Positions 2,970-37,937 of a DNA stretch of 38,632 bases are shown here, one piece after another. The stretch is from a virus: the IMG/VR virus record IMGVR_UViG_3300044825_000517, positions 1 through 38,632 of that record. One strand, written 5' to 3'. A model generated the notes under the pieces. The model was not told the DNA's origin. It saw only the letters and a program-made list of their open reading frames with translations, and searched no databases. Made by a program: the position numbers and the translations under genes. The number at the start of each line of letters is the position of its first letter. Positions within the stretch are counted from its first letter, which is position 1.

Positions 2970-3647
2970 ATGCCAGTTCCTAACGATGCGATGGTTGCCG
3001 AGGCTAAGAAAGGTTTAGCTTGGCGAGAAGAATTTAGCCGTGGTGGAACGGCCATAGGCGTAGCGAGAGCCCGAGACATCATCAACAAAGCCGATCTTCC
3101 GCAACAAACAATCAGCCGAATGATTAGCTACTTTGCGAGGCACGAGGTTGATAAGCAGGGCGAGGGATGGTCTCCAGGCGAAGATGGTTACCCATCAGCA
3201 GGGCGAATAGCCTGGGCATTGTGGGGCGGCGATGCAGGAAAGAGTTGGGCGAATGCAAACAAAAAAGAGCAAGCGCAGCCGCAAGAAGTCTATACACCGG
3301 GCAGATTCATTATGTGTCTGCTTCACGCCGTAACTAACGCACACATACTTCATCTGCAAAGCCAAAGTTACGCCCAACACAAAGCGCTTGGCAGTTTCTA
3401 CGAAGATCTGGGCGACTTAGTGGATTCCGTGGTTGAGCAATGGCAGGGTCTCAATGGCAAGCTAATGAATTACCCCATCGAGTACAGACCGCCAGAAAGT
3501 ACGGCTAAGTCTGAGCTGGAGTACATGTTGGCTTATGTATCTGACTATAGAAGCTCAATGGGCGATGATTCGGCGATACAGAACGGCATCGACGAGATTG
3601 CAGCGCTTATGCAATCGACGCTTTATAAGCTGACGTTTCTTAAGTAA
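2970..3647 (+). CDS. two-domain phage protein: GGTAxGVARARD domain plus DUF5856-like domain
   Basis: 225 residues. The N-terminal domain (about 1-93) carries EFSRGGTAIGVARARDI, FARHEVDK and EDGYPSAGRIAWALWGGDAG, a signature found in other phage proteins, sometimes attached to unrelated domains (general knowledge). The C-terminal half (about 107-225) reads LLHAVTNAHILHLQSQSYAQ, HKALGSFYEDLGDLVDSVVE and later EYMLAYVSDYRSS. This matches the DUF5856 pattern, a predicted four-helix ferritin-like phage protein. The function of either part is unproven. Shine-Dalgarno GGAG lies at 2961-2964. Its stop overlaps the next ATG (TAATG). Confidence 0.7.
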   Translation: MPVPNDAMVAEAKKGLAWREEFSRGGTAIGVARARDIINKADLPQQTISRMISYFARHEVDKQGEGWSPGEDGYPSAGRIAWALWGGDAGKSWANANKKEQAQPQEVYTPGRFIMCLLHAVTNAHILHLQSQSYAQHKALGSFYEDLGDLVDSVVEQWQGLNGKLMNYPIEYRPPESTAKSELEYMLAYVSDYRSSMGDDSAIQNGIDEIAALMQSTLYKLTFLK

Positions 3648-3832: not shown

Positions 3833-3992
3833 TCTGCCCTACTCACTCTATTGTTTATTCAACGCGCTTATGGAGCGTGAACAGTTAGAGTCAATCACAA
3901 GGCATATGACTCGCAAAGAGTCAGATCTATTCTTAGACTTAGCCACATACTCATGCCACGAACGCCCAAGCAGACAACCTGTCGGGAGTTAG
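3756..3992 (+). CDS. hypothetical protein
   Basis: 78 residues from GTG 3756, preceded by GGAGG at 3746-3750 with a 5-nt spacer. An ATG at 3741 in the same frame would add five residues but lacks that spacing. Helical and acidic: IVKALEHLANEKDFIFQAVF, then YSLYCLFNALMEREQL and TRKESDLFLDLA. No known family. It overlaps the previous gene by about 75 nt and the following HNH gene by 40 nt, unusually dense packing. Confidence 0.55.
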   Translation: MRIVKALEHLANEKDFIFQAVFNQDDLPYSLYCLFNALMEREQLESITRHMTRKESDLFLDLATYSCHERPSRQPVGS

Positions 3993-4339
3993 GCTGTACA
4001 AATCCCAAGGTCAACGGCTCGACGTTCTGCAACCAGCATGGCGGCGCAATATCTACAGACCGCAAGGCTTTCAATAAACTGTACGGTACTAAGCAATGGC
4101 AACAATTCAGGCAGATCCAACTGTCAAAGCATCCGATCTGCGCTAGATGCCAAAGCCTCGGAAAAATTACGCCAGCTCACCACGTTGACCACATCTTCCC
4201 GCACAGAATGAACAGAGATAAGTGGATGGGCAACCGCTTCCAGTCGCTCTGCGCTGAGTGCCACTCCATAAAGACAGGGCTTGAAAAGAAAGGCGAGGCG
4301 CACGATTATGTTGCGGGCGAGATACACTTGATTTCATAA
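3953..4339 (+). CDS. HNH endonuclease
   Basis: 128 residues. An N-terminal Cys/His cluster (CRELGCTNPKVNGSTFCNQH) precedes the HNH core: CARC, HHVDHIFPHRMNRDKW with the catalytic-type His and Asp, then LCAECHSIKTG closing the zinc site. HNH proteins beside terminase genes in HK97-like cos phages assist terminase cleavage at the packaging site (established for that group). Here two genes separate it from the small terminase, so the same role is plausible but inferred. It starts inside the preceding gene; the stop shares bases with a small ORF at 4339. Confidence 0.88.
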   Translation: MPRTPKQTTCRELGCTNPKVNGSTFCNQHGGAISTDRKAFNKLYGTKQWQQFRQIQLSKHPICARCQSLGKITPAHHVDHIFPHRMNRDKWMGNRFQSLCAECHSIKTGLEKKGEAHDYVAGEIHLIS

Positions 4340-4428
4340 TGCGGAATGACTTAAAAATTGACGCGCGGGAGATGAGCAAGCGCGCCCCTAACTTTCTGCA
4401 AAAGGATTATTCCAATTGGGTAGCTTAA
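4339..4428 (+). CDS. possible 29-residue small ORF
   Basis: Start ATG at 4339 shares a base with the HNH stop (TAATG), and the frame runs MRNDLKIDAREMSKRAPNFL to DYSNWVA before TAA at 4426-4428. It fills the only gap between the HNH gene and the methyltransferase and overlaps the latter's TTG start by 13 nt. No family is known. Coupled start and gap filling support it; the small size keeps confidence low. Confidence 0.4.
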   Translation: MRNDLKIDAREMSKRAPNFLQKDYSNWVA

Positions 4429-5690
4429 AAAACCAGGGAATTCCCCGCGTGGTCATGACTCGCGTGGGGGATCTTACCCCTTACGCAAGAAACGCAAGAA
4501 CGCATTCAGACGAGCAGGTCGCGCAGATCGCTGCGTCGATAAAAGAGTTTGGTTGGACGAACCCGATCTTGGTTGATGGCGAGAAGGGTTTGATTGCCGG
4601 CCACGGAAGATTGGCTGCGGCTCGGAAACTTGGGATGGAAGAAGTTCCGGTGATAGAACTAACTCACCTTTCCGAGACTCAAAAGAAAGCGCTGATTCTT
4701 GCTGACAACAAACTAGCGCTGAATGCCGGATGGGATGCAGAGCTTTTGAACCTTGAGCTCGAAGAATTGGAGCTTGAGGGCGTAGATCTAAACCTAGTTG
4801 GTTTTGGCGAAGAGGAAAGAGACGCGCTAAGGCCGGAGGTTGTAAACGAAGGGCTTACAGACGAGGATGCCGTACCTGAGACACCAGAGGACCCTATTAC
4901 CAAGCCTGGGGATATTTGGATACTAGGCAAGCACAGGCTTATGTGCGGTGATAGTACGAGCATAGATGCGGTGGATAAGCTCATGAACGGCGATCAGGTA
5001 GATTTTATGTTTACCAGTCCGCCTTACAACGCAGGAGATTCGGAAAAGTTATCTGGCAATACGCATACAACCGACAACAAATATGCAACATATAGAGATG
5101 ACAAAACGCAAGATGATTATCTGGAATTTTTGTGTGGATTTACTAACGCATGGATGTGGGTAAGTAGTTGCATGGCGATAAACATTCAGCAATTAGCCGG
5201 CAATAAAATCGCTTTTATAGATTACCTTTCAACTTACAAGAATCATTTAATTGACATTGCCATTTGGGACAAAAAACATGGTGCGCCACAAATAGCAAAA
5301 AACGTTATGTCTAATAGGTTTGAATACATTGTTTTTTTAGGGCAAACAGAAAATCCATCAAGATCCATTCCGACGGCAGACTTTCAGGGGACAATTCAAA
5401 ATGTCTACGAAGGTCATCCGAATAGAAATAATGAATTCGCAAACATTCATGCGGCGACATTTCCAGTTGATTTCCCCGAGTGGGCTATCAATTCATTCAC
5501 AAAGAAAAATATGTTTATTGGAGATGCTTTTGGCGGAACTGGGACAACCTTAATTGCTTGCGAAAAAACAGGTCGCTCTTGTCGGATGATGGAACTAGAC
5601 CCAAAATACTGCGATGTCATCGTTAAGCGATGGGAAGAATTTACCGGACAGAAAGCGAGGCTCGAAAATGCAGAGGAAATATCCACCTGA
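4416..5690 (+). CDS. ParB-like domain fused to DNA methyltransferase
   Basis: 424 residues from TTG 4416, preceded by AAAAGGA at 4400-4406. GTG 4449 or ATG 4455 are alternative starts and keep both domains. Residues 17-110 form a ParB/Srx-like domain (NPILVDGEKGLIAGHGRLAA, then LADNKLAL). Residues about 165-420 form an N4/N6-type methyltransferase of beta order: catalytic SPPY at 201-204 comes before the AdoMet-binding GDAFGGTGTT at about 369-378. SPPY is common in N4-cytosine enzymes, although N6-adenine cannot be excluded. Such fusions are frequent near phage terminases. Likely roles are protection from restriction or marking DNA for packaging. Confidence 0.88.
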   Translation: MGSLKNQGIPRVVMTRVGDLTPYARNARTHSDEQVAQIAASIKEFGWTNPILVDGEKGLIAGHGRLAAARKLGMEEVPVIELTHLSETQKKALILADNKLALNAGWDAELLNLELEELELEGVDLNLVGFGEEERDALRPEVVNEGLTDEDAVPETPEDPITKPGDIWILGKHRLMCGDSTSIDAVDKLMNGDQVDFMFTSPPYNAGDSEKLSGNTHTTDNKYATYRDDKTQDDYLEFLCGFTNAWMWVSSCMAINIQQLAGNKIAFIDYLSTYKNHLIDIAIWDKKHGAPQIAKNVMSNRFEYIVFLGQTENPSRSIPTADFQGTIQNVYEGHPNRNNEFANIHAATFPVDFPEWAINSFTKKNMFIGDAFGGTGTTLIACEKTGRSCRMMELDPKYCDVIVKRWEEFTGQKARLENAEEIST

Positions 5691-7804: not shown

Positions 7805-9202
7805 ATGGGCATATTCGACAAATTCCGCAAGAAACCAACCCAAAATGAGTCGAATTCGTTGTTCGGCAACACTGTTTTGGGTAATAACGTCATGCTCCGA
7901 GGTAAGGGGCAAGGCTACGGATCTAATCAGCTTCTCTATGTAACAACCTCCGCTGTCAACGAAGCTGGACGTTCGCTTGACATTACAACGCTTGCCAGAA
8001 ACTCGACAGTCATGGCTTGCGTCGGAACCAAGGCCAGAGCGCTCGCACAATTGCCGGTAAAGATCATGTCTCGGCAAGCTGACGGTACTTTGGTCGATAC
8101 GCAGACGGAACCTGGGGTTCCAGAGCGCGAAAAGAACCGCGCAAAGTCGATTCTTAACCTTCTTGCTCAGCCTAACAACTTCCAGAGTCAATACGAGTTT
8201 TGGTATCAGTTCACAATGTGGCATGAGCTGGCCGGTGAGACTTTTGTATTGCTCTGGAGAAAGAACGAAGCCGATCCTCAGCAGGTTCCGCTTGAAGTCT
8301 ACGTTCTTGATTCGACGCTAATTGTTCCGCGTATCTCTGAGACGAGATACCCGTTTTACACGCTTACAAGCTCAAGTTACGGGTTTAACAAAGACGAACC
8401 GCTGCAATACTTTCAGGTTATGCACGTTAAGAGCGAACCTTGGCAGGGTTCTTCTTCGTTTAACCGTCTCCAGGCTGTCGAGCTCATTTCGCTAGATCAA
8501 GACATTGATCTTTACTCAAACTTCATCATGCTTAACGGCGCAAAGCCTTCTGGTTTGTTCCGTACTGAGCAAGTCATACCCGATTCCAAGTTCAAAGAGA
8601 TCGCAGCGCGGTTAAAAGAAGCATGGACAAACATGCTCAACAGCCAGCCCTCAGACTTGAGCAAACCTGGGCAGTCGATGCTATTAGACCAAGGTATGAT
8701 GTACGAAAGTATTAAGCCTTTGACGCTGCAAGACGTAGATGCGCGAGAGCTGAAGAAACAAACGATGGCGCGAATTGCTGGCTTGTTTGGTGTTCCGCCG
8801 GCGATGATCGGCGTGGGTGAGTCGAAGTACAACAATACGCAGACAATGCTCGACGAGTTTTATAAATCCACGATGATGCCGTTCATCACCAATATTGAGC
8901 AGAAGCTAAAGACAAGCCTTCTTGGTGGCTATCCCAATCTGTATGTGCAGTTTCAGACTCAGGATTTCCTGAAGGGCGCTCCGCTGGATCAAATGAACTA
9001 TGTGGTGGCGGGGGTTAAGAATGGAATTCTCACGCCAAACGAAGCTAGAGACTATCTTGGGCTTGACAGCGTGGATGATGGTGATTCTCTGCTTGCTGCC
9101 GGTGGCGTTGATAAGCCTATTCCCGGCTCTTCGCCGCAGGATACTGGCGGTGGCGGCAATCTTAAGGTCATAGGTAAAACCGGGCGAGCTGGTAATGCTT
9201 AA
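7805..9202 (+). CDS. portal protein (HK97 type)
   Basis: 465 residues. Shows the HK97-type portal layout: an early segment with STVMACVGTKARALAQLPVK, then VYVLDSTLIVPRI, the LISLDQDIDLYSNFIMLNGA helix region, and ARIAGLFGVPPAMIGVGES followed by NNTQTMLDEFYKSTMMPFI, the classic portal clip and stem signature. It forms the dodecameric DNA channel at one capsid vertex and docks the terminase. The C-terminus is Gly/Pro-rich and probably disordered. Eight bases separate it from the terminase stop. Confidence 0.93.
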   Translation: MGIFDKFRKKPTQNESNSLFGNTVLGNNVMLRGKGQGYGSNQLLYVTTSAVNEAGRSLDITTLARNSTVMACVGTKARALAQLPVKIMSRQADGTLVDTQTEPGVPEREKNRAKSILNLLAQPNNFQSQYEFWYQFTMWHELAGETFVLLWRKNEADPQQVPLEVYVLDSTLIVPRISETRYPFYTLTSSSYGFNKDEPLQYFQVMHVKSEPWQGSSSFNRLQAVELISLDQDIDLYSNFIMLNGAKPSGLFRTEQVIPDSKFKEIAARLKEAWTNMLNSQPSDLSKPGQSMLLDQGMMYESIKPLTLQDVDARELKKQTMARIAGLFGVPPAMIGVGESKYNNTQTMLDEFYKSTMMPFITNIEQKLKTSLLGGYPNLYVQFQTQDFLKGAPLDQMNYVVAGVKNGILTPNEARDYLGLDSVDDGDSLLAAGGVDKPIPGSSPQDTGGGGNLKVIGKTGRAGNA

Positions 9203-9302
9203 GGATGTTTTGAAGCGGTTAAAGGAACAGGCCGACAAGAGAAAGCCGAAGCCTAAACCCGAAGATGGGAAAATGAAGGAAAAGGAACCGATACATGGCT
9301 AA
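9195..9302 (+). CDS. small Lys-rich ORF between portal and protease
   Basis: 35 residues from ATG 9195 (overlapping the portal end by 8 nt) to TAA 9300-9302 (overlapping the protease start by 8 nt). The sequence starts MLKDVLKRLKEQADKRKPKP and is strongly charged. Overlaps on both sides make it an exact bridge, which argues for translational coupling. Short ORFs at this place occur in other HK97-like phages. A scaffold or assembly accessory role would be speculation. Confidence 0.5.
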   Translation: MLKDVLKRLKEQADKRKPKPKPEDGKMKEKEPIHG

Positions 9303-10062
9303 GCACATTCAATTCTTCACTGAGGCAAAGGTTGAGCTTGGCCGTATGGCTGACGAGGCAACCGGCGAACCTACCGGCGAGATCGAAGCAACCCTGACAA
9401 CCTGGGGCGCGAGAGAAGGCGCAGATGGTCGGCGTTTTTTCTACACACCAGCGGCGTTCGAGATGTGGCACGAAGGCTGGATGGAAGCCGGCAGACCGTT
9501 GCCGATGTACTTCCAGCACAGCTCAGACATGATGCCCGTGGGCGAATGGTCTAAGTTCGACATTACCGACGAAGGCATGACGGGAACCGGGAAACTTTTC
9601 CTGAATACCACGGCAGGATCGGATCTTTATACGATCATGAAGGAATCGCCTCGCATGGTTGGTGGTGTTTCTGTTGGCGCGTATGCTGACGAATATCAAA
9701 TGGTCGATGAGAACGGCGAGCCAACAGACGATCCTGACAGCTTCTTTCAGATCATGAAAGGCGGATTGGCTGAGGTTTCGATTGTGATGAACCCCAACAA
9801 TCCCAAAGCTGAAATCTCAAGACTTGAATACTGGATGGGGGATAAACCAAACCCCAGAACGATTGAAAAAGCACTGCGTGATGCTGGGCTTTCTCGAAAG
9901 GATGCAGCCGCTGCATCCGGCTTGTTGAAGTCGATCATAGAGCAGCGTGATGCTGCCGTGACAACTTCTCAACCCGCTAATCCGAGTGAGTCGGACGCAG
10001 CGGTGAAACTGCTTGAAGCACTCCAATACCGCGAGCTGCTGAAGGCAATCGCAACCCGATAA
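9295..10062 (+). CDS. prohead protease (S78 / HK97 family)
   Basis: 255 residues. Catalytic His at about residue 75 in MYFQHSSDMMPVGEW and catalytic Ser at about 126 in MVGGVSVGAYA, followed by LAEVSIVMNPNNPKAEI, the usual arrangement for S78 assembly proteases. It cleaves the N-terminal delta region of the major capsid protein during maturation. The C-terminal 80 residues contain a DAGLSRKDAAAASGLLKSI helix. Shine-Dalgarno GGAA precedes the ATG. It lies immediately before the capsid gene, as expected. Confidence 0.92.
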   Translation: MAKHIQFFTEAKVELGRMADEATGEPTGEIEATLTTWGAREGADGRRFFYTPAAFEMWHEGWMEAGRPLPMYFQHSSDMMPVGEWSKFDITDEGMTGTGKLFLNTTAGSDLYTIMKESPRMVGGVSVGAYADEYQMVDENGEPTDDPDSFFQIMKGGLAEVSIVMNPNNPKAEISRLEYWMGDKPNPRTIEKALRDAGLSRKDAAAASGLLKSIIEQRDAAVTTSQPANPSESDAAVKLLEALQYRELLKAIATR

Positions 10063-10072
10063 AGGAACTATC

Positions 10073-11422
10073 ATGCTTGAAAAAGTCATTGAAAAACTGG
10101 ACGCAATCGAAGCGTCTAACGCTGCAAAACTTGCTGAGACCGCCGAGGCTGTAAAGACTCAAGTTACCGAAGCTGTTCAGGCAGTTAAAGCAGAAACCGA
10201 GCAAAAACTTGCCGCTCTTGAGGCAAAAATTGCCGCTCCGTCAATCATTCGCCCGATCCACAAGACTGTTCGTGGCGAAGCAAACCGTCGCTTCCGCGAT
10301 GTGCTCAAAGAGTACATGAAGGGCGGCAATCAAGTTGAGCGCGAAGTAAAGATCTTTGAATCAGTCGATCAGTTCGACGGGTACATTCGTGAAGCATCTG
10401 CGCTTACCGGTTCTGGTTACGACGTTGGTGGCCGTACCGCTTACGATCCCGTGTTTGCTGCTAAGCGTCTTGGCAATCCGATGATGGATCTTTCCCGCAT
10501 TGTCGCAACCGACGGTTCTGCTTACCAGTTCCGCGTAAAGACCGGAAACGCTGGCGCTCAGTGGGGCTACACGGTTCAGAACAACGGCGCATCAACGACT
10601 GAAGCAACGTCGATTTGGCAGGTGATCCTCAAAGACTTGAATGCACAGTTCCCGATTCGTACTGCTGCGCTCGACGATATTGACGGTCTTGAGCCCAACG
10701 TTGTTGACGATATGCTGATGGAATTCCAACAGGCAATGGCAACATCGATGATCCAGAACAACGATCAATCGGGAACCGGAACCTCGGTATCGACGGGCGG
10801 AGCTGATGGTCTGCGCGGTTTGGATCAGTATGCGGGCGCAAATGCGACCTACACGGGCGGTACAGTTTCCACGGCTTCTTTCGGAACCTCGGGAACCGCA
10901 ACGACCAACGGTTTGCATAGCCTTGCAACGTATGACCAGCTAACCACGAACGCAAACACTGTTGGTGCAAATAACATTGTCTATAAAGACGTTGTTAACT
11001 TCATCTACAGCTTGCCGCAGCAATACTGGACCCCGACTGCTCGCTTCATGATTAACCCAATCTTGTTGCAGGGCATCCGTGGTTTGGTTGACGATCAGAA
11101 GCGCCCAATCTACATCGACGGTTTGAGCCGTGACGATGGCATCGTTGGCAAGTTGCTTGGCTTTGACGTTGTGGTTAACAAGTACGTTGACAATCCTTCT
11201 CAGCCCACAACCGGCGCGGCAGGTACAACGTCTTATTACCCAATGTACTTTGCCGACTTCCAGCAGTTCCACACCATCGTTATGCGTCTAAGCATGGTTC
11301 TGCGTCGTTATGACCAGACGCTCCCAGGCTCGATCACGTTCTACGGCGAGACTCGCGCGGCAACTTCTGTGCGCGATCCTAACGCTGGTGTACGTTATCG
11401 CTCGACCGGCACTGCGGCTTAA
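10073..11422 (+). CDS. major capsid protein 1 with N-terminal delta domain
   Basis: 449 residues. Residues 1-55 form a coiled-coil scaffolding-like delta domain rich in Ala, Glu and Lys (KLAETAEAVKTQVTEAVQAV). A basic linker follows at about 60-105, the likely region of protease cleavage. From EASALTGSG (107) onward comes the HK97 fold: WGYTVQNNG, QFPIRTAALDDIDGLEPNVV, FMINPILLQGIRGL, and a terminal VRDPNAGVRYRSTG. Cleavage near 100-106 would leave about 345 residues. It is paralogous to the next gene. A Shine-Dalgarno AAAGGAA lies just upstream. Forms the capsid shell. Confidence 0.95.
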   Translation: MLEKVIEKLDAIEASNAAKLAETAEAVKTQVTEAVQAVKAETEQKLAALEAKIAAPSIIRPIHKTVRGEANRRFRDVLKEYMKGGNQVEREVKIFESVDQFDGYIREASALTGSGYDVGGRTAYDPVFAAKRLGNPMMDLSRIVATDGSAYQFRVKTGNAGAQWGYTVQNNGASTTEATSIWQVILKDLNAQFPIRTAALDDIDGLEPNVVDDMLMEFQQAMATSMIQNNDQSGTGTSVSTGGADGLRGLDQYAGANATYTGGTVSTASFGTSGTATTNGLHSLATYDQLTTNANTVGANNIVYKDVVNFIYSLPQQYWTPTARFMINPILLQGIRGLVDDQKRPIYIDGLSRDDGIVGKLLGFDVVVNKYVDNPSQPTTGAAGTTSYYPMYFADFQQFHTIVMRLSMVLRRYDQTLPGSITFYGETRAATSVRDPNAGVRYRSTGTAA

Positions 11423-11426
11423 TTTA

Positions 11427-11444
11427 AGAGGGCGAAAGCCCTCT
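11427..11444 (+). promoter_or_regulatory. GNRA-capped hairpin between the two capsid genes
   Basis: Perfect 7-bp stem AGAGGGC (11427-11433) with GCCCTCT (11438-11444) closed by GAAA, a stable tetraloop. No T-run follows (next bases are CCCTCT), so it is not a strong terminator. It lies between the stop of capsid gene 1 and the ribosome site of capsid gene 2. Likely roles are mRNA stabilisation, processing or partial termination that sets the ratio of the two proteins (inference). Confidence 0.7.
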
Positions 11445-11461
11445 CCCTCTATGGAGAGACT

Positions 11462-12490
11462 ATGAAACAAGTTATTTTAGAAGGGCTTAAGCAGGCTCTC
11501 CACGAGGGCAAAGCCACGGTGAACCTCGCTGAAGCCTCAGCCCTTACGGGCTCGGGCTCCGGCGTTGGTGGCCGGGTCTACAACGAAGATGTATTTGCAA
11601 GTCTGCGTTATTGGAACCCGTTCAGGGTTTACGCTAACCAGACGATGACCGCAGATTCGGATATTCAGTTCACGGTCAAGACTGGTAACGCTGCAAACAG
11701 CACAAACCCTTGGGGCTACACGGTAAACGCTAACAGCGGATCGCCCAACATTGCCACAAGCATTTGGCAGCTTCCGATGCGCGTTATCAGCGCTCAGATG
11801 CCTATTCGCGCGGCAGCGATGGATGACATCAACGGATTAGATGCAGCTTTAGCCGAAGATCTTGCGATGGAATTTAGCCAGATCGAAGCCGCGTCAATGG
11901 CAATTAATAACGATCAGGCAGGATCAACCACCACAAGCACAGGCGCAACTAATGGTCTGCGCGGTCTTAAGATGTACGCAGGAACCGCTGGATCTACGGC
12001 GGCTTACGGTAGCTCGGGAACGGCTATTACTAATGGTATTCACACGCTCAACACGGTCGGCTATACGCATAGCGGCGGCATTGAGTGGGAAAGCCTTGTT
12101 GACGTTGCTAACGCTCTTCCAGGTCAGTTTTGGAGAATGCCTGGGACCGCGTGGATGATGCACCCAACGGCATTACAGACTCTGCGTGAATACACCCATG
12201 CAAGTAATTCCTACGCGTTGGTTGAGACTGGCGAAAAAGACGAAGGCCCAGGTGTCAACATCATGGGCTGGCCGGTTATTGTGAATCCGTACTTAGATGC
12301 TCCTGCAATTGGGGCTTCTCCCATTTACCTAGCCAACTGGCCTCGGTTTATGTGGATCGTTGACCATTCAGAAATGACGCTGCAACGCATGGAACAAACG
12401 CAGCCTGGGACAATCACGATCTACGCTGAAAAGCGTTTGGTCTCGACTGTACGTGATGTAACCGCTGGTGTCCGCTTGATCGGGGCTTGA
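11462..12490 (+). CDS. second major capsid-like protein without delta domain
   Basis: 342 residues. Aligns with capsid protein 1 from EASALTGSG (residue 24 here, 107 there) to the end: WGYTVNANSG, AQMPIRAAAMDDINGLDAAL, INNDQAG, TNGLRGLKMYAGT, AWMMHPTALQTLREY and VRDVTAGVRLIG. Only about 23 residues precede the shared part, so there is no room for a scaffolding delta domain. Its size resembles the mature form of capsid protein 1. It may be a minor shell subunit, a penton-like variant or a replaced copy. Shine-Dalgarno GGAGAG lies at 11453-11458. Confidence 0.88.
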   Translation: MKQVILEGLKQALHEGKATVNLAEASALTGSGSGVGGRVYNEDVFASLRYWNPFRVYANQTMTADSDIQFTVKTGNAANSTNPWGYTVNANSGSPNIATSIWQLPMRVISAQMPIRAAAMDDINGLDAALAEDLAMEFSQIEAASMAINNDQAGSTTTSTGATNGLRGLKMYAGTAGSTAAYGSSGTAITNGIHTLNTVGYTHSGGIEWESLVDVANALPGQFWRMPGTAWMMHPTALQTLREYTHASNSYALVETGEKDEGPGVNIMGWPVIVNPYLDAPAIGASPIYLANWPRFMWIVDHSEMTLQRMEQTQPGTITIYAEKRLVSTVRDVTAGVRLIGA

Positions 12491-12491
12491 T

Positions 12492-13136
12492 ATGCCAAGT
12501 CAGCTACAGGGTAATTTCGGAGCGGGTTCGCGTAACCCGTTCAACTATTCGAAAGTCATTCAGAGTAACCGAGACCCGGTTACGCAATGGCTTACGCTTG
12601 ACGAAATCACCAATCAGCTCAATTTGTTTGCGGATGAATCTCAAGACGAGTTTTTATCTCAGCTTGAGCTGGCAGCTCGGATGGCAATTGAGGATTATTT
12701 AGGTGTTCCAATCTTCAATGTAACGTATCAGGCTTCGTACTTGATCTCGGGTTTGATGGCAGCTCCGGTTTCGCTAGATCTCCCCGAGGTCTCGCAAAAT
12801 GGCGTAACGATCAACTGGGTCAAGTATTACAACGACCTAAACCCTCCGGTTCTCACGACGATTGCAAGCAACCAGTATTACTACGACCCGACGGGAAACA
12901 AGTTAGTTCTTTTCGAGGTTCCTAATAACGTCAACACCTACATGACCGCTCCGATGCTTTGCCAGTACACACTACAAGGCAGCGTCATTGGTCAGTATCC
13001 CGTGGTTAAGCAAGCGGGGCTGATGTTGCTCACGCATTTCTACAATAACCGGTCTGCCATCTCTGAGGCTAAGCAGTATCAGCTTCCCTGGGCGATTGAC
13101 CAGTTGTTGCGACCATACAAGACTTTGGTGATGTGA
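12492..13136 (+). CDS. head-tail connector (gp6-like adaptor)
   Basis: 214 residues. The N-terminal helical part TLDEITNQLNLFADESQDEF, then LELAARMAIEDYLG and later LLTHFYNNRSAISE with a C-terminal AIDQLLRPYKTLVM, is the pattern of gp6-like DNA packaging and connector proteins. It forms the ring below the portal. The beta-rich middle (about 70-155) is longer than in minimal gp6 proteins. It starts two bases after the capsid stop and is coupled to the next gene by TGATG. Confidence 0.8.
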   Translation: MPSQLQGNFGAGSRNPFNYSKVIQSNRDPVTQWLTLDEITNQLNLFADESQDEFLSQLELAARMAIEDYLGVPIFNVTYQASYLISGLMAAPVSLDLPEVSQNGVTINWVKYYNDLNPPVLTTIASNQYYYDPTGNKLVLFEVPNNVNTYMTAPMLCQYTLQGSVIGQYPVVKQAGLMLLTHFYNNRSAISEAKQYQLPWAIDQLLRPYKTLVM

Positions 13137-23002: not shown

Positions 23003-23301
23003 TCTGGTCAGTCACAAAACTGGAAGTCACAACCTACGAAGGTTTGGCAGATGTTGTTATCTCGGTCGGTTGGTCAGTGACGGATACTCAGCAAGGCGTT
23101 ACCGAGACGTTTACTGGCGTTACGCTAGTTGAGCCTCCAGGCGATAATTTCACACCTTACGATCAGCTTACAGAAGCTCAGGTTTTAGAATGGGTTTTTA
23201 AGAAGGTGAGCCAAGCAGGAACGGAAGCTATAGTTACTCAGCGCATACAAGACAAGATTTCTCCGGCGGTCGATCCGCCGCTACCTTGGAACAAGACATG
23301 A
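22999..23301 (+). CDS. DUF7936-like small tail-associated protein
   Basis: 100 residues: [20 protein letters not shown] followed by [19 protein letters not shown] and [18 protein letters not shown]. Two facing strands, a Thr-rich strand, then a helix after PYD.LTEAQV, the pattern of a small phage family found near tail fibres. Function unknown. ATGA overlap with the fibre gene and with the glycosyltransferase start at 23298. Confidence 0.7.
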
Positions 23302-24362
23302 AAATTTGCGTTTACGCAATCGCAAAAAACGAAGAGCAATTTGTAAAAAGATTCTGTGATTCAGCAAAAGATGCTGATCTCATTTTGATTGCTGATACAG
23401 GGTCAACGGATAGCACTGCAAGCGTTGCTAGAGAGTGCGGAGCAACCGTTTACGATATATCGGTCAAGCCTTGGCGCTTTGATATGGCGCGAGACGCGGC
23501 GCTGTGTCTTATTCCTGGCGATTACGATGTTTGTGTGTCACTAGACTTAGACGAAGTTTTAGAACCGGGCTGGCGCGAAGAAATTGAGCGTGTATGGAAA
23601 CCCGAGACAACTAGACTTAGGTATAAGTTTAACTGGGGCCATAACATTGTTTTTTACTACGAAAAGATCCATCATCGAGCTGGCTACCGCTGGCATCATG
23701 CGGTCCATGAATACCCAAGGGCTGATTTGCGAATCAAAGAAGTCTACGCACACACCGACAAACTCTTAGTTTCGCACCATCCAGACTCGACAAAAAGCCG
23801 TGGGCAGTATTTAGATCTTCTTAGAATGGCAGTGAAAGAAGATCCGCGGTGTCCAAGAAACGCGTTTTACTTTGCGCGTGAGCTGACGTTCTACAAGCTA
23901 TGGGATGAAGCAATAACAGCTCTAAATGCTTATCTCAACATGCCAGAAGCGACATGGCAAAACGAGCGATGCTATGCCATGCGTCTTTTAGGTAAGGCTT
24001 ACGACGAGAAGCTGGAATATTGGCAAGCGCTGAAGTGGTTTAGAACGGCTATAGCTGAAGCTCCAGGAACAAGGGAGCCGTGGGTAGATTTCGCTATGTC
24101 TGCATACCGAAAGCATATGTGGAAAGAATGCTTTCACGCGTCTACAATGGCGCTAGAGATCAAAGATAGAGAGTTGGTTTACACCTGCGACCCCGAGGTA
24201 TGGGGATCTAAGCCTTATGATTTAGCAGCAATCTCTGCTCACAATCTTGGGCTTAAAGACGAAGCAATACGTTATGGGCAAATAGCTTGTGACTTGTCGC
24301 CAGAAGATGAAAGGCTAAAAAACAATCTAGCTTTTTACAAAGAAGCAATGGTAGAATCATAA
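23298..24362 (+). CDS. family 2-like glycosyltransferase with TPR-like C-terminus
   Basis: 354 residues from ATG 23298, which overlaps the upstream stop (ATGA); ATG 23286 adds four residues and is less likely. N-terminal GT-A fold: ICVYAIAKNEEQFVKRFCDS, LIADTGSTDSTASVAREC, and the metal-binding DLD at residues 83-85 within VCVSLDLDEVLEPGW. The C-terminal 170 residues look like tetratricopeptide repeats (LWDEAITALNAYLNM, EYWQALKWFRTAIAEAPGT, LKDEAIRYGQIACDLSPED). It could glycosylate a tail protein or a host surface sugar. Placement amid tail genes favours phage structural or receptor modification. Confidence 0.85.
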   Translation: MKICVYAIAKNEEQFVKRFCDSAKDADLILIADTGSTDSTASVARECGATVYDISVKPWRFDMARDAALCLIPGDYDVCVSLDLDEVLEPGWREEIERVWKPETTRLRYKFNWGHNIVFYYEKIHHRAGYRWHHAVHEYPRADLRIKEVYAHTDKLLVSHHPDSTKSRGQYLDLLRMAVKEDPRCPRNAFYFARELTFYKLWDEAITALNAYLNMPEATWQNERCYAMRLLGKAYDEKLEYWQALKWFRTAIAEAPGTREPWVDFAMSAYRKHMWKECFHASTMALEIKDRELVYTCDPEVWGSKPYDLAAISAHNLGLKDEAIRYGQIACDLSPEDERLKNNLAFYKEAMVES

Positions 24363-32881: not shown

Positions 32882-33059
32882 TTCCTTGATGATCGAAAGC
32901 CAGTTCTCCGAGTGACCACGCTCGAAATGCTTTATGTTTTTCGATGGTGTCTTCGCACTCTGTGGAGGGCGGCTTCCAGCCGTACTGTCGCCAGATTTCC
33001 TCGACGGGCTTGAAGGTTCTGGGGGTTCTTTGCTCTGCAATCAACTCTCTCCAGCTCAT
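32868..33059 (-). CDS. hypothetical protein coupled to the exonuclease
   Basis: 63 residues. ATG 33059 overlaps the exonuclease stop (ATGA), so translation is coupled. Reads SWRELIAEQRTPRTFKPVEE then IWRQYGWKPPST, an EEIW.QYGW.PPS motif of small phage proteins next to recombination genes, and a helical tail. Function unknown. The next gene lies in a +1 frame, so a frameshifted larger protein is an alternative. Confidence 0.6.
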   Translation of the reverse strand: MSWRELIAEQRTPRTFKPVEEIWRQYGWKPPSTECEDTIEKHKAFRAWSLGELAFDHQGSEEQ

Positions 33060-33646
33060 CCTAATTTCCTTTGCATTGTGTCAACTTCCATTAAAAAAGT
33101 CATTACGTCTTTCTCTAGGTCTTCAATGTCTTTGCGCTCTGGTTGAAAACGAACAACAAACAACTGGAGATGCTCGGGCAACCGTGGATCGAACGATACA
33201 AAATCAACCCACTCTCTACCGGTACAAGCGAGCTGTGCAAGCATCTGGTGTTTGTGCTCGGAAGGTGGTTCGCCTTTCATCATCCAATTTAGATGCGTGG
33301 ATGTTTTCGGGCATTTGATTTCTAGTAACCCGTCTGTCCATACAAGACCATCTGGCGATGCTGCAAAGTTTGGAATTGTCGGGTGATTGACGATAGCAAC
33401 CTGCTCGACCCAGATGCCCGTTTTGATCTCATACGCAGCCCTTGCAAGCGGTTCGTTGGCCGTTCCCCATTCCATATAAGCGTTCGTAAAAGACTCGATT
33501 GGTGAGCCTGTAAGACGCTCTGTAATAATGTCTGCGATGTAGTCGGCTCGAGTTGCCGTTCCTTTTTTTGCTCGGGCAGCGGAGACACGGGAAGCTGTCA
33601 CTTTCCCGAGCCGAGCAAGTTTCCATTCCTCGGTTCCCTGCTCCAT
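33056..33646 (-). CDS. YqaJ-like viral recombinase exonuclease
   Basis: 196 residues. PD-(D/E)XK core of the lambda exonuclease/YqaJ type: EQGTEEWKLARLGKVTASR at the start, then MEWGTANEPLARAAYEIKTG, Asp99 in AASPDGL, and Glu109-x-Lys111 in LEIKCPK, followed by HLNWMMKGEPPSEHKHQMLA and QLACTGREWVDFVSFD. It digests one strand of dsDNA ends to expose ssDNA for annealing. Its pairing with SSB and ERF in one operon makes a complete recombination set. TGATG coupling to SSB. Confidence 0.92.
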   Translation of the reverse strand: MEQGTEEWKLARLGKVTASRVSAARAKKGTATRADYIADIITERLTGSPIESFTNAYMEWGTANEPLARAAYEIKTGIWVEQVAIVNHPTIPNFAASPDGLVWTDGLLEIKCPKTSTHLNWMMKGEPPSEHKHQMLAQLACTGREWVDFVSFDPRLPEHLQLFVVRFQPERKDIEDLEKDVMTFLMEVDTMQRKLG

Positions 33647-34017
33647 CAGAACGGAACCTCATCATCGTTATCGACCTCGGCTTTTGGTCTGCCGCTTAAC
33701 ATCTGCATCTGGTCAGCAACAATCTCGGTGGTGTACTTGTCGTGGCCGTTTTTGTCTGTCCATTTTCGAGTTTCTATCCTTCCCTCGACGTAAACCTGAG
33801 ATCCCTTCTTAACGTACTTGTCGACAATTTCAGCTAGCTTTCCCCAAAAGACAATGCGATGCCATTCTGTCTTTTCCTGGCGAGTACCGTCTTGCTGCTT
33901 CCAAGAGTGTTTTGTTGCTAACACCAGGGTACATACCGCAACCCCGGCATCTGTGTATTTGGTTTCCGGATCTTTTCCTGCGTTACCGATGATGATCGCT
34001 TTATTCACTGAACCCAT
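33646..34017 (-). CDS. ssb: single-stranded DNA-binding protein
   Basis: 123 residues. OB-fold SSB: SVNKAIIIGNAGKDPETKYT, VCTLVLATKHSW, TEWHRIVFWGKLAEIVDKYV, KKGSQVYVEGRIETRKW, then TTEIVADQMQML. The acidic C-terminal tip DNDDEVPF matches the DDDIPF-type tail with which bacterial SSBs recruit partner proteins. Short linker compared with host SSBs. It coats ssDNA produced by the exonuclease and replication. Confidence 0.94.
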   Translation of the reverse strand: MGSVNKAIIIGNAGKDPETKYTDAGVAVCTLVLATKHSWKQQDGTRQEKTEWHRIVFWGKLAEIVDKYVKKGSQVYVEGRIETRKWTDKNGHDKYTTEIVADQMQMLSGRPKAEVDNDDEVPF

Positions 34018-34295
34018 AACTTTCCTCTTTCAAATAAGTAACCGATTGTTTTGCGGTGGGCTTCTTCCCACATCGCTTCTTTCTCTTGTTTGTTCATACG
34101 ATGCCCTTGGTCTATAGCCATGTGACAGCGATAACACAGGGCGGCAATCCTGTAATCATGAGCTTTTATCCCTTTACCTTTTCCGTCGCGCAGCTGGTTG
34201 CTGTGCGCGGCCACGACGGTTCCATCTTCTGCGCCGCACAAAACACACTCAAACTCACGAACGATTTCCAATAGTTTTTGGTTTCTGTACATCAT
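34005..34295 (-). CDS. YbcO/DUF1364-like HNH-type nuclease
   Basis: 96 residues. Zinc-site cysteines CVLCG (about 17-21) and CYRCH (about 54-58) flank VVAAHSNQLRDGKGKGIKAH and DYRIAAL, the AHSNQ..GKG.G.KA pattern of the YbcO (DUF1364) family of phage nuclease-like proteins related in fold to Ref-type HNH enzymes. Probable role is a recombination-linked nuclease, inferred. Starts ATGATG overlapping the previous stop and overlaps the SSB start by 13 nt. Confidence 0.82.
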   Translation of the reverse strand: MMYRNQKLLEIVREFECVLCGAEDGTVVAAHSNQLRDGKGKGIKAHDYRIAALCYRCHMAIDQGHRMNKQEKEAMWEEAHRKTIGYLFERGKLWVQ

Positions 34296-34615
34296 TGGGT
34301 GTTCCTAATCTCTGCTCTGGCGTTTGCTTGCTCTGAGCGCCAAATTTCAATTCGCGCTTGAGCGGCAATAAGATCCCATCGTAACTTTTCTTCTATCGCC
34401 ACGGCTATTTTTAAGCCCTCTAGGAGCTCTAAATACTCAGGGTGAGCGTACGCATCACGCTCCTGAGCCGAGATCGGCTGAGCGGTGTTTAGCTGCATCA
34501 GCAGGGCTTTTTTGCTCTTTCTAAACTCTTCTAGGTACACGCGTTGAGCTCTAGCGTCTGCAAACTTTTCAGCATGTTTTAGGATGTAATCAACCGCCGC
34601 GTGAGGGTCTCTCAT
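34292..34615 (-). CDS. conserved phage protein with EEFRKSKKALLM motif
   Basis: 107 residues, almost all helix. MRDPHAAVDYILKHAEKFAD, ARAQRVYLEEFRKSKKALLM, and DAYAHPEYLELLEGLKIAVA are seen in a small protein that accompanies ERF-type recombination genes in betaproteobacterial phages (general recollection). The C-terminus is a long coiled coil with Arg/Ala. It probably assists recombination or replication; biochemical role unknown. TAATG coupling to ERF. Confidence 0.75.
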   Translation of the reverse strand: MRDPHAAVDYILKHAEKFADARAQRVYLEEFRKSKKALLMQLNTAQPISAQERDAYAHPEYLELLEGLKIAVAIEEKLRWDLIAAQARIEIWRSEQANARAEIRNTQ

Positions 34616-35214
34616 TACTTGATTCCCAATGCAGTTTTACGCTGATCTTTAGCGGCCACAATTGCTTTCTGTAATTCAGGCTGGCCTTTGTATTCAGTGT
34701 GTAACGCTTCGTAGACTTCTCTCAGCGTTTCTTTTGTGGCTCCGGCGATCAGCATCAGTTTGTCGGTGAATTCAGGCGTATGCGCTTTTACTTCATGCGT
34801 GGTTGCGTCAGCGTCGTTATCGCCTTCTGTAGGAATGCAAAAAGTCTGAAACGCTGCGTACTTGTAAGCTGCGCTCATCGCTTTATTCGTCGCTTTGTCG
34901 CCGCTATCCATTGCTTCGCCAAACGTTTTAACTGTGTGTTTTGTTCCATCGTGTGACGAGACAAAATCAAACTCAACCTCGACCACGACATAGAACAGCG
35001 AAGATCCGCTTTTGCCCATACGCTCGCTAACCTCACGAGCAATCACACGAGGCAGGATTACTAACCCATGCTTGCTGATGATCGGAGCAAGCGCGTTGTA
35101 AACATCATCTATCCCGCGAAACCCGTATCCCTGCTGAGTGTTTCTGCGGTCTTTAGCGATGCCTTGCTGGCAAAGGTCAGCAGAGACTTTTGCGATTAAG
35201 TTGTAGACGTTCAT
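34615..35214 (-). CDS. erf: ERF-family ssDNA annealing protein
   Basis: 199 residues from ATG 35214, with AAGGAA seven bases upstream; the longer frame to 35289 crosses a separate small gene. ERF features: QGIAKDRRNTQQGYGFRGID, DVYNALAPIISKHGLVILP, then VVEVEFDFVSSHDG, and the conserved GEAMDSGDKATNKAMSAAYK, YAAFQTFCIPTEGDNDAD. It anneals complementary ssDNA. Downstream it is coupled to the other recombination genes. The C-terminal 60 residues are variable and helical. Confidence 0.92.
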   Translation of the reverse strand: MNVYNLIAKVSADLCQQGIAKDRRNTQQGYGFRGIDDVYNALAPIISKHGLVILPRVIAREVSERMGKSGSSLFYVVVEVEFDFVSSHDGTKHTVKTFGEAMDSGDKATNKAMSAAYKYAAFQTFCIPTEGDNDADATTHEVKAHTPEFTDKLMLIAGATKETLREVYEALHTEYKGQPELQKAIVAAKDQRKTALGIK

Positions 35215-35225
35215 GTTTGGTTCCT

Positions 35226-35303
35226 TCACTTGACGAACAGGAACATTAGAACTCCGTAAAACATCCCCAATGCTATGTAAGCCAGCCATTCGATTTTCCT
35301 CAT
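35226..35303 (-). CDS. 25-residue single-pass membrane peptide
   Basis: From ATG 35303 to TGA at 35226 (minus strand) the frame reads MRKIEWLAYIALGMFYGVLM then FLFVK: a positively charged start, one hydrophobic helix of about 19 residues, and a charged end. AGGA lies about 8 bases before the start. It lies 11 nt upstream of the ERF start in the same operon and occupies otherwise empty DNA. It is a small membrane peptide of unknown role; superinfection or lysis control would be guesswork. Confidence 0.5.
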   Translation of the reverse strand: MRKIEWLAYIALGMFYGVLMFLFVK

Positions 35304-36916: not shown

Positions 36917-37041
36917 ACCAAACGATCAAGAAAGCGGTTAAGGCTGGCAAATGGCCTTTCGCTGCATTCGTTGGCAACAAATGGGTCAAACCAAAAAAGA
37001 TTAAGCCTGAGCCTGTCCCTTTTGAACCAGCGCCGTGGTGA
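36877..37041 (+). CDS. small basic hypothetical protein
   Basis: 54 residues from ATG 36877 (GGAA upstream); the earlier ATG 36844 lies deeper in the preceding gene. ENTDFGKAEKRIDQTIKKAV, KAGKWPFAAFVGNKWVKPKK, then a Pro-rich end. Strongly basic in the middle, possibly nucleic-acid binding. It overlaps the replication-type gene by 40 nt and is coupled to the methyltransferase by TGATG. Confidence 0.5.
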   Translation: MENTDFGKAEKRIDQTIKKAVKAGKWPFAAFVGNKWVKPKKIKPEPVPFEPAPW

Positions 37042-37937
37042 TGAATGAGCTGGCTCTTTTCGCGGGCGCTGGTGGAGGAATACTCGGAGGGCATCTCCTT
37101 GGATGGCGCACAGTCTGCGCTGTCGAGTGGGAACCCTACGCAGCTTGCGTACTTGCCGCCAGACAAAATGATGGCGTTCTCCCGCCTTTCCCGATTTGGG
37201 ATGACATTCAAACCTTTAACGGCAGACTGTGGCGAGGCCGTGTTGATGTCGTATCTGGAGGCTTTCCCTGTCAAGACATCTCCGCAGCAGGAAAAGGAGC
37301 CGGAATCGAAGGAGAGCGATCTGGCATGTGGCGAGAAATGGCACGGGTGGTCAGCGAAGTTCGACCCGCATACGTCTACGTTGAGAACAGCCCAATGCTC
37401 ACTACTCGAGGAGGAACCCGAGTTATTGCAGACCTTACCTCGCTCGGGTATGACGCGCAGTGGGATGTTATGGGAGCGGCAGACGTTGGTGCTCCGCACC
37501 AGCGAGACAGAATCTGGATTGTGGCCTACACCATGTCTACCTGGGAATGGCGGGACGAATGGCAAAGCAAAACTAAAAGAAATGCTGAAATGGCCTACTC
37601 CAATGAGTTCAGAATACAAAGCGAACAAGAATTATCGACTTGGAAGGCAAAACGGATTGACTCAGGCTGTAATGAAATGGCCCACGCCAGTCAAATCAGA
37701 TTCTCAGGCTTGCAGACCGAGCAAAGGATGGAAAGGGGATTCCGATCTTCCTTCTGTAGTTTGGACGGAAAGTGGTGGCAAAGAGAACCCGAATCTACCT
37801 CCCGCACAATTGAACCCAACGTGGGTCGAGTGGCTGATGGGGTGGCCTCTAGGGTGGACAGACTTAAAGCCATTGGAAATGGACAAGTTCCAGCAGTGGC
37901 AGCAACAGCATGGAAGTTACTAACGGAGAGCATATGA
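37041..37937 (+). CDS. dcm: cytosine-C5 DNA methyltransferase
   Basis: 298 residues from ATG 37041 (TGATG overlap; GTG 37035 in frame is less likely). Motif I ALFAGAGGG at 5-13; motif IV GGFPCQDIS with catalytic Cys77; motif VI YVENSP at 113-118 (ENV in most members); motif VIII QRDRIWIVA at 154-162; motif X RLKAIGNGQVPAVAATAW near the end. The region between 165 and 255 is the likely target recognition part. It methylates cytosine and probably protects phage DNA. The whole gene is also read in the +1 frame by 37045-37923. Confidence 0.93.
   Translation: MNELALFAGAGGGILGGHLLGWRTVCAVEWEPYAACVLAARQNDGVLPPFPIWDDIQTFNGRLWRGRVDVVSGGFPCQDISAAGKGAGIEGERSGMWREMARVVSEVRPAYVYVENSPMLTTRGGTRVIADLTSLGYDAQWDVMGAADVGAPHQRDRIWIVAYTMSTWEWRDEWQSKTKRNAEMAYSNEFRIQSEQELSTWKAKRIDSGCNEMAHASQIRFSGLQTEQRMERGFRSSFCSLDGKWWQREPESTSRTIEPNVGRVADGVASRVDRLKAIGNGQVPAVAATAWKLLTESI
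37045..37923 (+). CDS. overlapping gene: WPTP-repeat phage protein
   Basis: 292 residues in the +1 frame, contained almost wholly within the methyltransferase gene. It is not a mere shadow: its opening MSWLFSRALVEEYS, the middle SRFGMTFKPLT and LPRSGMTRSGMLWER, three WPTP motifs (LWPTPCL, KWPTPMSSEY, KWPTPVKSDS) and the end LNPTWVEWLMGWPLGWTDLK form a family familiar from phage genomes, in my recollection at least partly at this same locus. Function unknown. Its ATG at 37045 lies four bases after the methyltransferase start, so both would share one ribosome site. Confidence 0.75.
   Translation: MSWLFSRALVEEYSEGISLDGAQSALSSGNPTQLAYLPPDKMMAFSRLSRFGMTFKPLTADCGEAVLMSYLEAFPVKTSPQQEKEPESKESDLACGEKWHGWSAKFDPHTSTLRTAQCSLLEEEPELLQTLPRSGMTRSGMLWERQTLVLRTSETESGLWPTPCLPGNGGTNGKAKLKEMLKWPTPMSSEYKANKNYRLGRQNGLTQAVMKWPTPVKSDSQACRPSKGWKGDSDLPSVVWTESGGKENPNLPPAQLNPTWVEWLMGWPLGWTDLKPLEMDKFQQWQQQHGSY

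Follow-up and report, generated by a model that had tools for sequence, protein, structure and literature searches.

Why a small phage should maintain two adjacent genes for HK97-fold capsid proteins, only one of which carries a scaffolding-type domain, is the question raised by the 38,632-base virus record analysed here (IMG/VR record IMGVR_UViG_3300044825_000517, referred to in its full length as the window), which belongs to a small freshwater phage. Its genes are arranged in the order small and large terminase, portal protein (positions 7805–9202, identified by profile matches), prohead serine protease of the Peptidase_S78 type (9295–10062; 38.3 bits versus a cut-off of 21), a major capsid protein of 449 residues with an N-terminal delta-type domain (MCP1, 10073–11422), a second HK97-fold capsid protein of 342 residues which we propose to be a minor or vertex subunit (MCP2, 11462–12490), an Ad1-like head-tail adaptor (12492–13136), head completion and tail genes. 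The features of this head module given here with coordinates lie on the plus strand, and the positions and reading frames of the two capsid genes are correct in the initial annotation. The S78 protease gene is located directly upstream of MCP1, as in HK97-type self-scaffolding systems, and the capsid pair is flanked by terminase, portal and tail genes, unlike the shells of two-component encapsulins, which come without these.

Several other genes of the window could be assigned to protein families. The gene at 4416–5690 encodes a ParB-like N-terminal domain fused to an N6/N4 DNA methyltransferase, and adjoins the small terminase gene and an apparent HNH-type endonuclease gene (3953–4339). A match to glycosyltransferase family 2 was found within the tail fibre region (23286–24362). 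A recombination block on the minus strand (33056–35289) comprises a YqaJ nuclease, an apparent single-strand binding protein and an ERF recombinase, and a C5 cytosine DNA methyltransferase is encoded at the right end of the window (37035–37937).

The two capsid proteins are clearly paralogous. They share 42% identity and 58% similarity over 344 columns (BLASTP, E = 1e-67), and the alignment begins at the motif EASALTGSG, confirming the proposal that both genes align over the full HK97 fold from this point on. With the motif starting at residue 107 of MCP1 and residue 24 of MCP2, the extra N-terminal residues number 106 and 23, as originally counted. Both proteins match Pfam family PF05065 (Phage_capsid; 79.9 bits for MCP1 and 75.7 bits for MCP2, cut-off 24.2) and PHROG 10, 'major head protein' (83 and 55 bits, respectively). 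Their AlphaFold2 models, which are monomers of moderate confidence (mean pLDDT 72) made from 59-row alignments, are structurally most similar to the capsid protein of the Rhodobacter gene transfer agent (RcGTA; PDB 6tb9), followed by HK97 and other HK97-fold capsid proteins, with a Foldseek probability of 1.00 to both HK97 and RcGTA; no T4 chain occurs among the best 50 structural matches listed. The RcGTA capsid protein Rcc01687 (6tb9, 6tba) is also the nearest solved structure by profile (E-values of 1.8e-9 for MCP1 and 0.0084 for MCP2), and a single-sequence search of the PDB gave no matches. As MCP1 is closer to these outside families, judged by both the PHROG 10 scores and the RcGTA E-values, MCP2 looks like the derived copy.

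To see whether the pair is conserved, as the initial annotation had suggested should be surveyed, relatives were collected from viral contigs, using as queries the two window proteins, MCP2 of phage P19250A, a divergent MCP2 and an alignment of MCP2 sequences; genome contigs, searched once, provided additional relatives, giving more than 300 loci in total. MCP1 followed by MCP2, both with open reading frames, was found in 309 loci. In 19 loci only one of the genes is present, and there the contig end cuts the locus next to that gene. Frameshifts occur in four loci and in either gene (MCP2 in L117 and L320, MCP1 in L307 and L281), and look like sequencing errors. Loss of one capsid gene in relatives was therefore rejected, as all seeming cases trace back to contig ends or frameshifts. 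Since the loci overlap, the complete pairs correspond to 187 distinct DNA sequences, from which 60 representatives with less than 90% identity were chosen. The protease gene lies 5' of MCP1 in all 60, and the adaptor gene directly 3' of MCP2 in all 53 with downstream DNA, so the order protease-MCP1-MCP2-adaptor is kept in each of the 53 readable relatives. One locus (L258, JAHEYD010000010) is a bacterial-type phage module on a contig of a metagenome-assembled genome named Candidatus Nitrosotalea, an archaeon; this placement is probably a binning error.

The same pair in the same order is found in an isolate, Methylophilaceae phage P19250A (KX815270), with 58% identity to the window in MCP1 and 53% in MCP2. 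There, MCP1 is annotated as 'gene transfer agent capsid protein' and MCP2 as 'hypothetical protein'. No other full-length relative was found among 50,697 phage records. Five distantly related phages whose module is similar (KS9, PHB09, RHph_Y3_1, YPHTV-1 and NatCom_9287) have one capsid gene behind the protease gene, with no second one annotated, so that MCP2 is an extra gene. A survey of 398 genomes found no other full-length tandem PF05065 pairs among the matches listed, but it overlooked the second copy known from G001 as well, and is therefore not taken as evidence of rarity. Phage Venkman (MT375522), published as a relative of P19250A, was dropped from the comparison; its head module is a different one, annotated with a scaffolding gene separate from the capsid gene, and neither capsid protein of the window has a match in its genome. 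Two capsid proteins have been annotated in the Bacillus phages B450T/C (PMC12786184).

Family tree analysis of 34 pairs, rooted with five single-MCP phages on long outgroup branches, places each paralog in one clade and the two clades as sisters (support 88 and 86, outgroup 99). This topology suggests that the duplication was probably a single and old event, and a recent duplication or gene conversion was rejected on the same grounds. Within the window's clade the two genes are under equal constraint, with median dN/dS values of 0.055 for MCP1 and 0.052 for MCP2. The distance matrices of MCP1 and MCP2 are correlated (r = 0.63, compared to a maximum of 0.19 in 2,000 permutations). Random decay of the second gene, named at the outset as an observation that would speak against a capsid role, was looked for in the relatives and not found: the gene is intact in nearly all of them. 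The frameshifted copies in a few contigs could be read as signs that MCP2 has no function and is a recent, selfish or decaying copy, but the strong purifying selection on MCP2, the hundreds of loci with both genes open, the similar frameshifts in MCP1 and the single old duplication make this reading practically negligible.

The N-terminal regions differ in a way that bears on assembly. In the MCP1 model, residues 2–53 form one long helix of 52 residues and a further helix spans residues 66–83, which is consistent with the delta-type domain plus linker ascribed to this protein; the MCP2 model has an N-terminal helix of only 14 residues. Thus, the helical delta domain typical of HK97-type self-scaffolding systems is present in MCP1 and absent from MCP2. 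The second protein had been described as resembling the processed form of the first and as needing no protease step. The former is not simply so, as MCP2 of all relatives retains a leader of 22–41 residues before the motif, with a conserved helix ILxGIKxALxEG. The latter is not supported by the residues at the start of the common region, where Glu occupies P1 and Ile, Leu, Met or Val occupies P3 in 60 of 60 divergent relatives for MCP1 and likewise for MCP2, and where P1' is mostly Ala (49/60 and 59/60, respectively). We predict that this invariant [ILMV]-x-E is a Glu-type prohead-protease site in both paralogs. The MCP1 propeptide (residues 1–107, 10073–10393), consisting of the long helix and linker, would then be removed after Glu107, and the short MCP2 leader (residues 1–24, 11462–11533) after Glu24. 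Because the site is common to both paralogs, MCP2 is probably processed too, as is T4 gp24.

Prohead proteases of T4 and of giant phages cut after Glu behind a short motif (PMC9026906, PMC10052503), and in T4 the capsid protein gp23 loses 65 residues and the vertex protein gp24 loses 10 (PMC9958956), to which the predicted removal of about 107 and 24 residues here is a close parallel. Co-variation of the whole EASALTGSG motif between the paralogs was also considered as proof of a common protease site and rejected: only P19250A alters both copies (GLQGSG), and the motif is altered in MCP1 alone in L150, L295, L309 and L329–L332. As the rest of the motif does not co-vary tightly, only [ILMV]-x-E is used for the processing argument.

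In HK97-type shells, much of the subunit-subunit contact is provided by the N-arm, the E-loop and the spine helix, and the A domain lies at the centre of the capsomer. With domain limits that are approximate, MCP1 and MCP2 of the same genome are 58% identical in the N-arm, 43% in the E-loop and 52% in the spine helix, and 31% identical in the second block of the A domain and the residues that follow it. Segments conserved in MCP1 (around residues 256–264 and 289–299) are also missing from MCP2. Such divergence, greatest in the A domain, is suggestive of a protein tuned for five-fold over six-fold rings. In T4, some mutations that bypass gp24 are located in the A domain (PMC9958956).

In three lineages, MCP2 (L329:3995-5242, L331:3995-5233 and L332:4013-5248) is interrupted in the E-loop region by an insert of roughly 70 residues (SGTGxxAGTYISxLGTGTGGxGTY..) that has no counterpart in the MCP1 of the respective genome. 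No Pfam match was found within the insert of L332. It may be a surface-display domain.

The initial annotation also proposed that the second gene could be a repurposed copy. Capsid-derived proteins can indeed take on other roles, and MCP2 might serve as a decoy, decoration or regulatory protein outside the shell lattice; the lattice-contact regions are, however, among the best conserved parts between the paralogs, the protease site is kept and both proteins are equally constrained, so that this reading is disfavoured and appears very unlikely. MCP2 is very probably a functional shell-type protein.

A stem-loop (AGAGGGC-GAAA-GCCCTCT, 11427–11444, plus strand) is located just past the MCP1 stop codon of the window, at the site of a terminator-like hairpin in nearly all relatives. 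Over the 60 representatives the median distance from the stop codon is 13 bases and the median energy –15.9 kcal/mol. A stem-loop below –10 kcal/mol is present in 98% of these lineages (9% in shuffles), and is followed by a T-run (at least five T in nine bases) in 73% (1% in shuffles); at eleven other junctions of the same operon a stem-loop occurs in at most 26%, and one with a T-run in at most 8%. Pairing is kept while the stem sequences vary widely between lineages. In one lineage (L264, L265, L268 and L269) a small gene is present between the capsid genes, and the hairpin remains directly behind MCP1. This small gene resembles the N-terminal part of a window protein (2970–3647, MPVPNDAMVAEAKKGLAWR...), the C-terminal half of which is DUF5856, and seems to be mobile within these genomes.

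With its GC-rich stem-loop and T-run, conserved across lineages, the putative regulatory element has the form of an intrinsic terminator, and transcription of MCP1 should therefore exceed that of MCP2 and everything downstream. In the window's own clade the stem is present and the T-run behind it is weak or degenerate (TCCCTCTATG), so that termination may be poor there; in this clade the hairpin may act as a weak terminator, as a stabiliser of the RNA 3' end or on the ribosome site of MCP2. The T-run of the P19250A intergenic hairpin is better than that of the window. A generic scan of the window for promoters and terminators gave results not above shuffles. A promoter for MCP2 within the end of MCP1 is possible and would uncouple the level of MCP2 from the hairpin. 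Partial pairing could also form in the window's clade between GGAGAG, the ribosome-binding site of MCP2, and a CTCT upstream of it, just behind the main hairpin (11447–11458), and might provide translational control of MCP2.

Codon bias, which is only a proxy, also ranks the two proteins. Median values of the effective number of codons (Nc) are 36.7 for MCP1, 39.0 for the major tail protein, 39.5 for MCP2, 43.5 for the portal, 43.9 for the adaptor and 44.9 for the protease. The Nc of MCP1 is lower than that of MCP2 in 52 of 60 genomes (Wilcoxon p = 7e-9, which is optimistic since the genomes are related), and MCP2 is more biased than the portal gene in 42 of 44. If bias follows demand, MCP2 is needed in more copies than the portal and in fewer than MCP1. 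A minor role of MCP2 relative to MCP1 is thus supported by two independent proxies.

Together, the hairpin, the codon bias, the linkage of the genes and the domain-wise divergence support the original suggestion that the shell is mixed and that the second protein is a minor subunit or one specific to the vertices. By economy and by analogy with T4, pentameric vertices are the best single explanation for MCP2, and it is reasonably probable that MCP1 forms the hexamers and MCP2 the vertex pentamers, like gp23 and gp24.

MCP2 could instead be mixed irregularly into the shell or occupy other defined sites, such as the surroundings of the portal or mixed hexamers. Family 2B two-component encapsulins, which have the HK97 fold, show such variable composition and irregular tiling (PMC12407261), and the expression evidence places MCP2 only below MCP1 and above the portal; the invariant linkage, the strict separation into two clades and the lost A-domain segments nevertheless suggest one fixed, symmetry-linked position, and we regard these arrangements as unlikely. 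Highly improbable is an alternative particle, i.e. a smaller or transfer-agent-like head, or a protein that serves only under some conditions: the closest solved structure of both proteins is from a gene transfer agent, but MCP2, with its short leader and no delta-type scaffold domain, is unlikely to assemble proheads alone, and profile searches of the head module revealed no second portal or protease.

We propose that both genes encode building blocks of one capsid shell. MCP1, located before the terminator-like hairpin, would be made in excess, and with its fused delta-type scaffold domain would drive prohead assembly and form the hexamers. MCP2, presumably translated from mRNA that reads through the hairpin, would be made at a lower level, co-assemble into the same lattice through the common N-arm, E-loop and spine, and as pentamers fill the eleven non-portal five-fold vertices. 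Within the prohead, the S78 protease would cut both proteins after the Glu of [ILMV]-x-E. A head with a putative triangulation number of T=7 would need about 360 copies of MCP1 and 55 of MCP2. The literature search found no virion protein data or cryo-EM for any member of this group and no capsid study of P19250A.

The T4 pair gp23/gp24 resembles the present one in consisting of two adjacent HK97-fold paralogs, with a long and a short N-terminal peptide and a Glu-type cleavage motif, here predicted in every representative of both paralogs; the T4 genes are likewise neighbours and lie near the protease gene. T4 gp24 is a probable duplicate of gp23, to which it is only about 20% identical (PMC9958956), compared to 42% for MCP1 and MCP2. 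T4 differs from the 38.6-kb phage described here in its genome of about 170 kb, its large prolate head and its use of a separate core scaffold; the present pair differs further in its GTA/HK97-type capsid proteins, the delta-type domain fused to MCP1 and the terminator-like hairpin between the genes. From the tree and the nearest families, the pair is probably independent of gp23/gp24 in origin, and we classify it as analogous in its presumed working, not as a member of the T4 system.

Other known systems share single features with the pair. RcGTA, the nearest in profile and fold, has a single capsid protein. HK97 gp5 has the same fold, an N-terminal delta-type domain, as on MCP1, and an S78 protease, but is encoded by one capsid gene instead of two, and its product forms both hexamers and pentamers (PMC13185644). 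In T7, the sole terminator of the phage polymerase (T-phi) lies directly after the capsid gene, gene 10, and the genes behind it depend on read-through for their expression (PMC5592923), similar to the arrangement proposed here; T7 differs in using a phage polymerase and in its minor capsid protein 10B, which is a frameshift product and not a paralog. Family 2B encapsulins have two HK97-fold proteins in one shell, without a phage head and with irregular composition (PMC12407261).

A 2026 review names T4 as a phage whose hexons and pentons are encoded by different genes, and attributes the use of one shell gene by 40-kb phages to the need to save genome space (PMC13185644). This reasoning does not accommodate a 38-kb lineage in which a second shell protein, taking up more than 1 kb, is retained throughout, and a separate hexon and penton in such a phage, if true, would contradict the one-gene generalisation for small phages (PMC13185644). 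On balance, we slightly favour the view that the hexon/penton division has a second origin, separate from that in T4, among small phages of the HK97/GTA type (about 38 kb), a widespread lineage known mostly from environmental contigs, with the ratio of the two proteins set by a conserved terminator and one Glu-specific protease maturing both. The isolate P19250A makes such a two-protein shell directly testable. The pair would offer a small natural system in which to study how HK97-fold proteins become specialised for five-fold vertices, and for what reason, and suggests a likely role for a 'hypothetical protein' encoded on hundreds of phage contigs from the environment.
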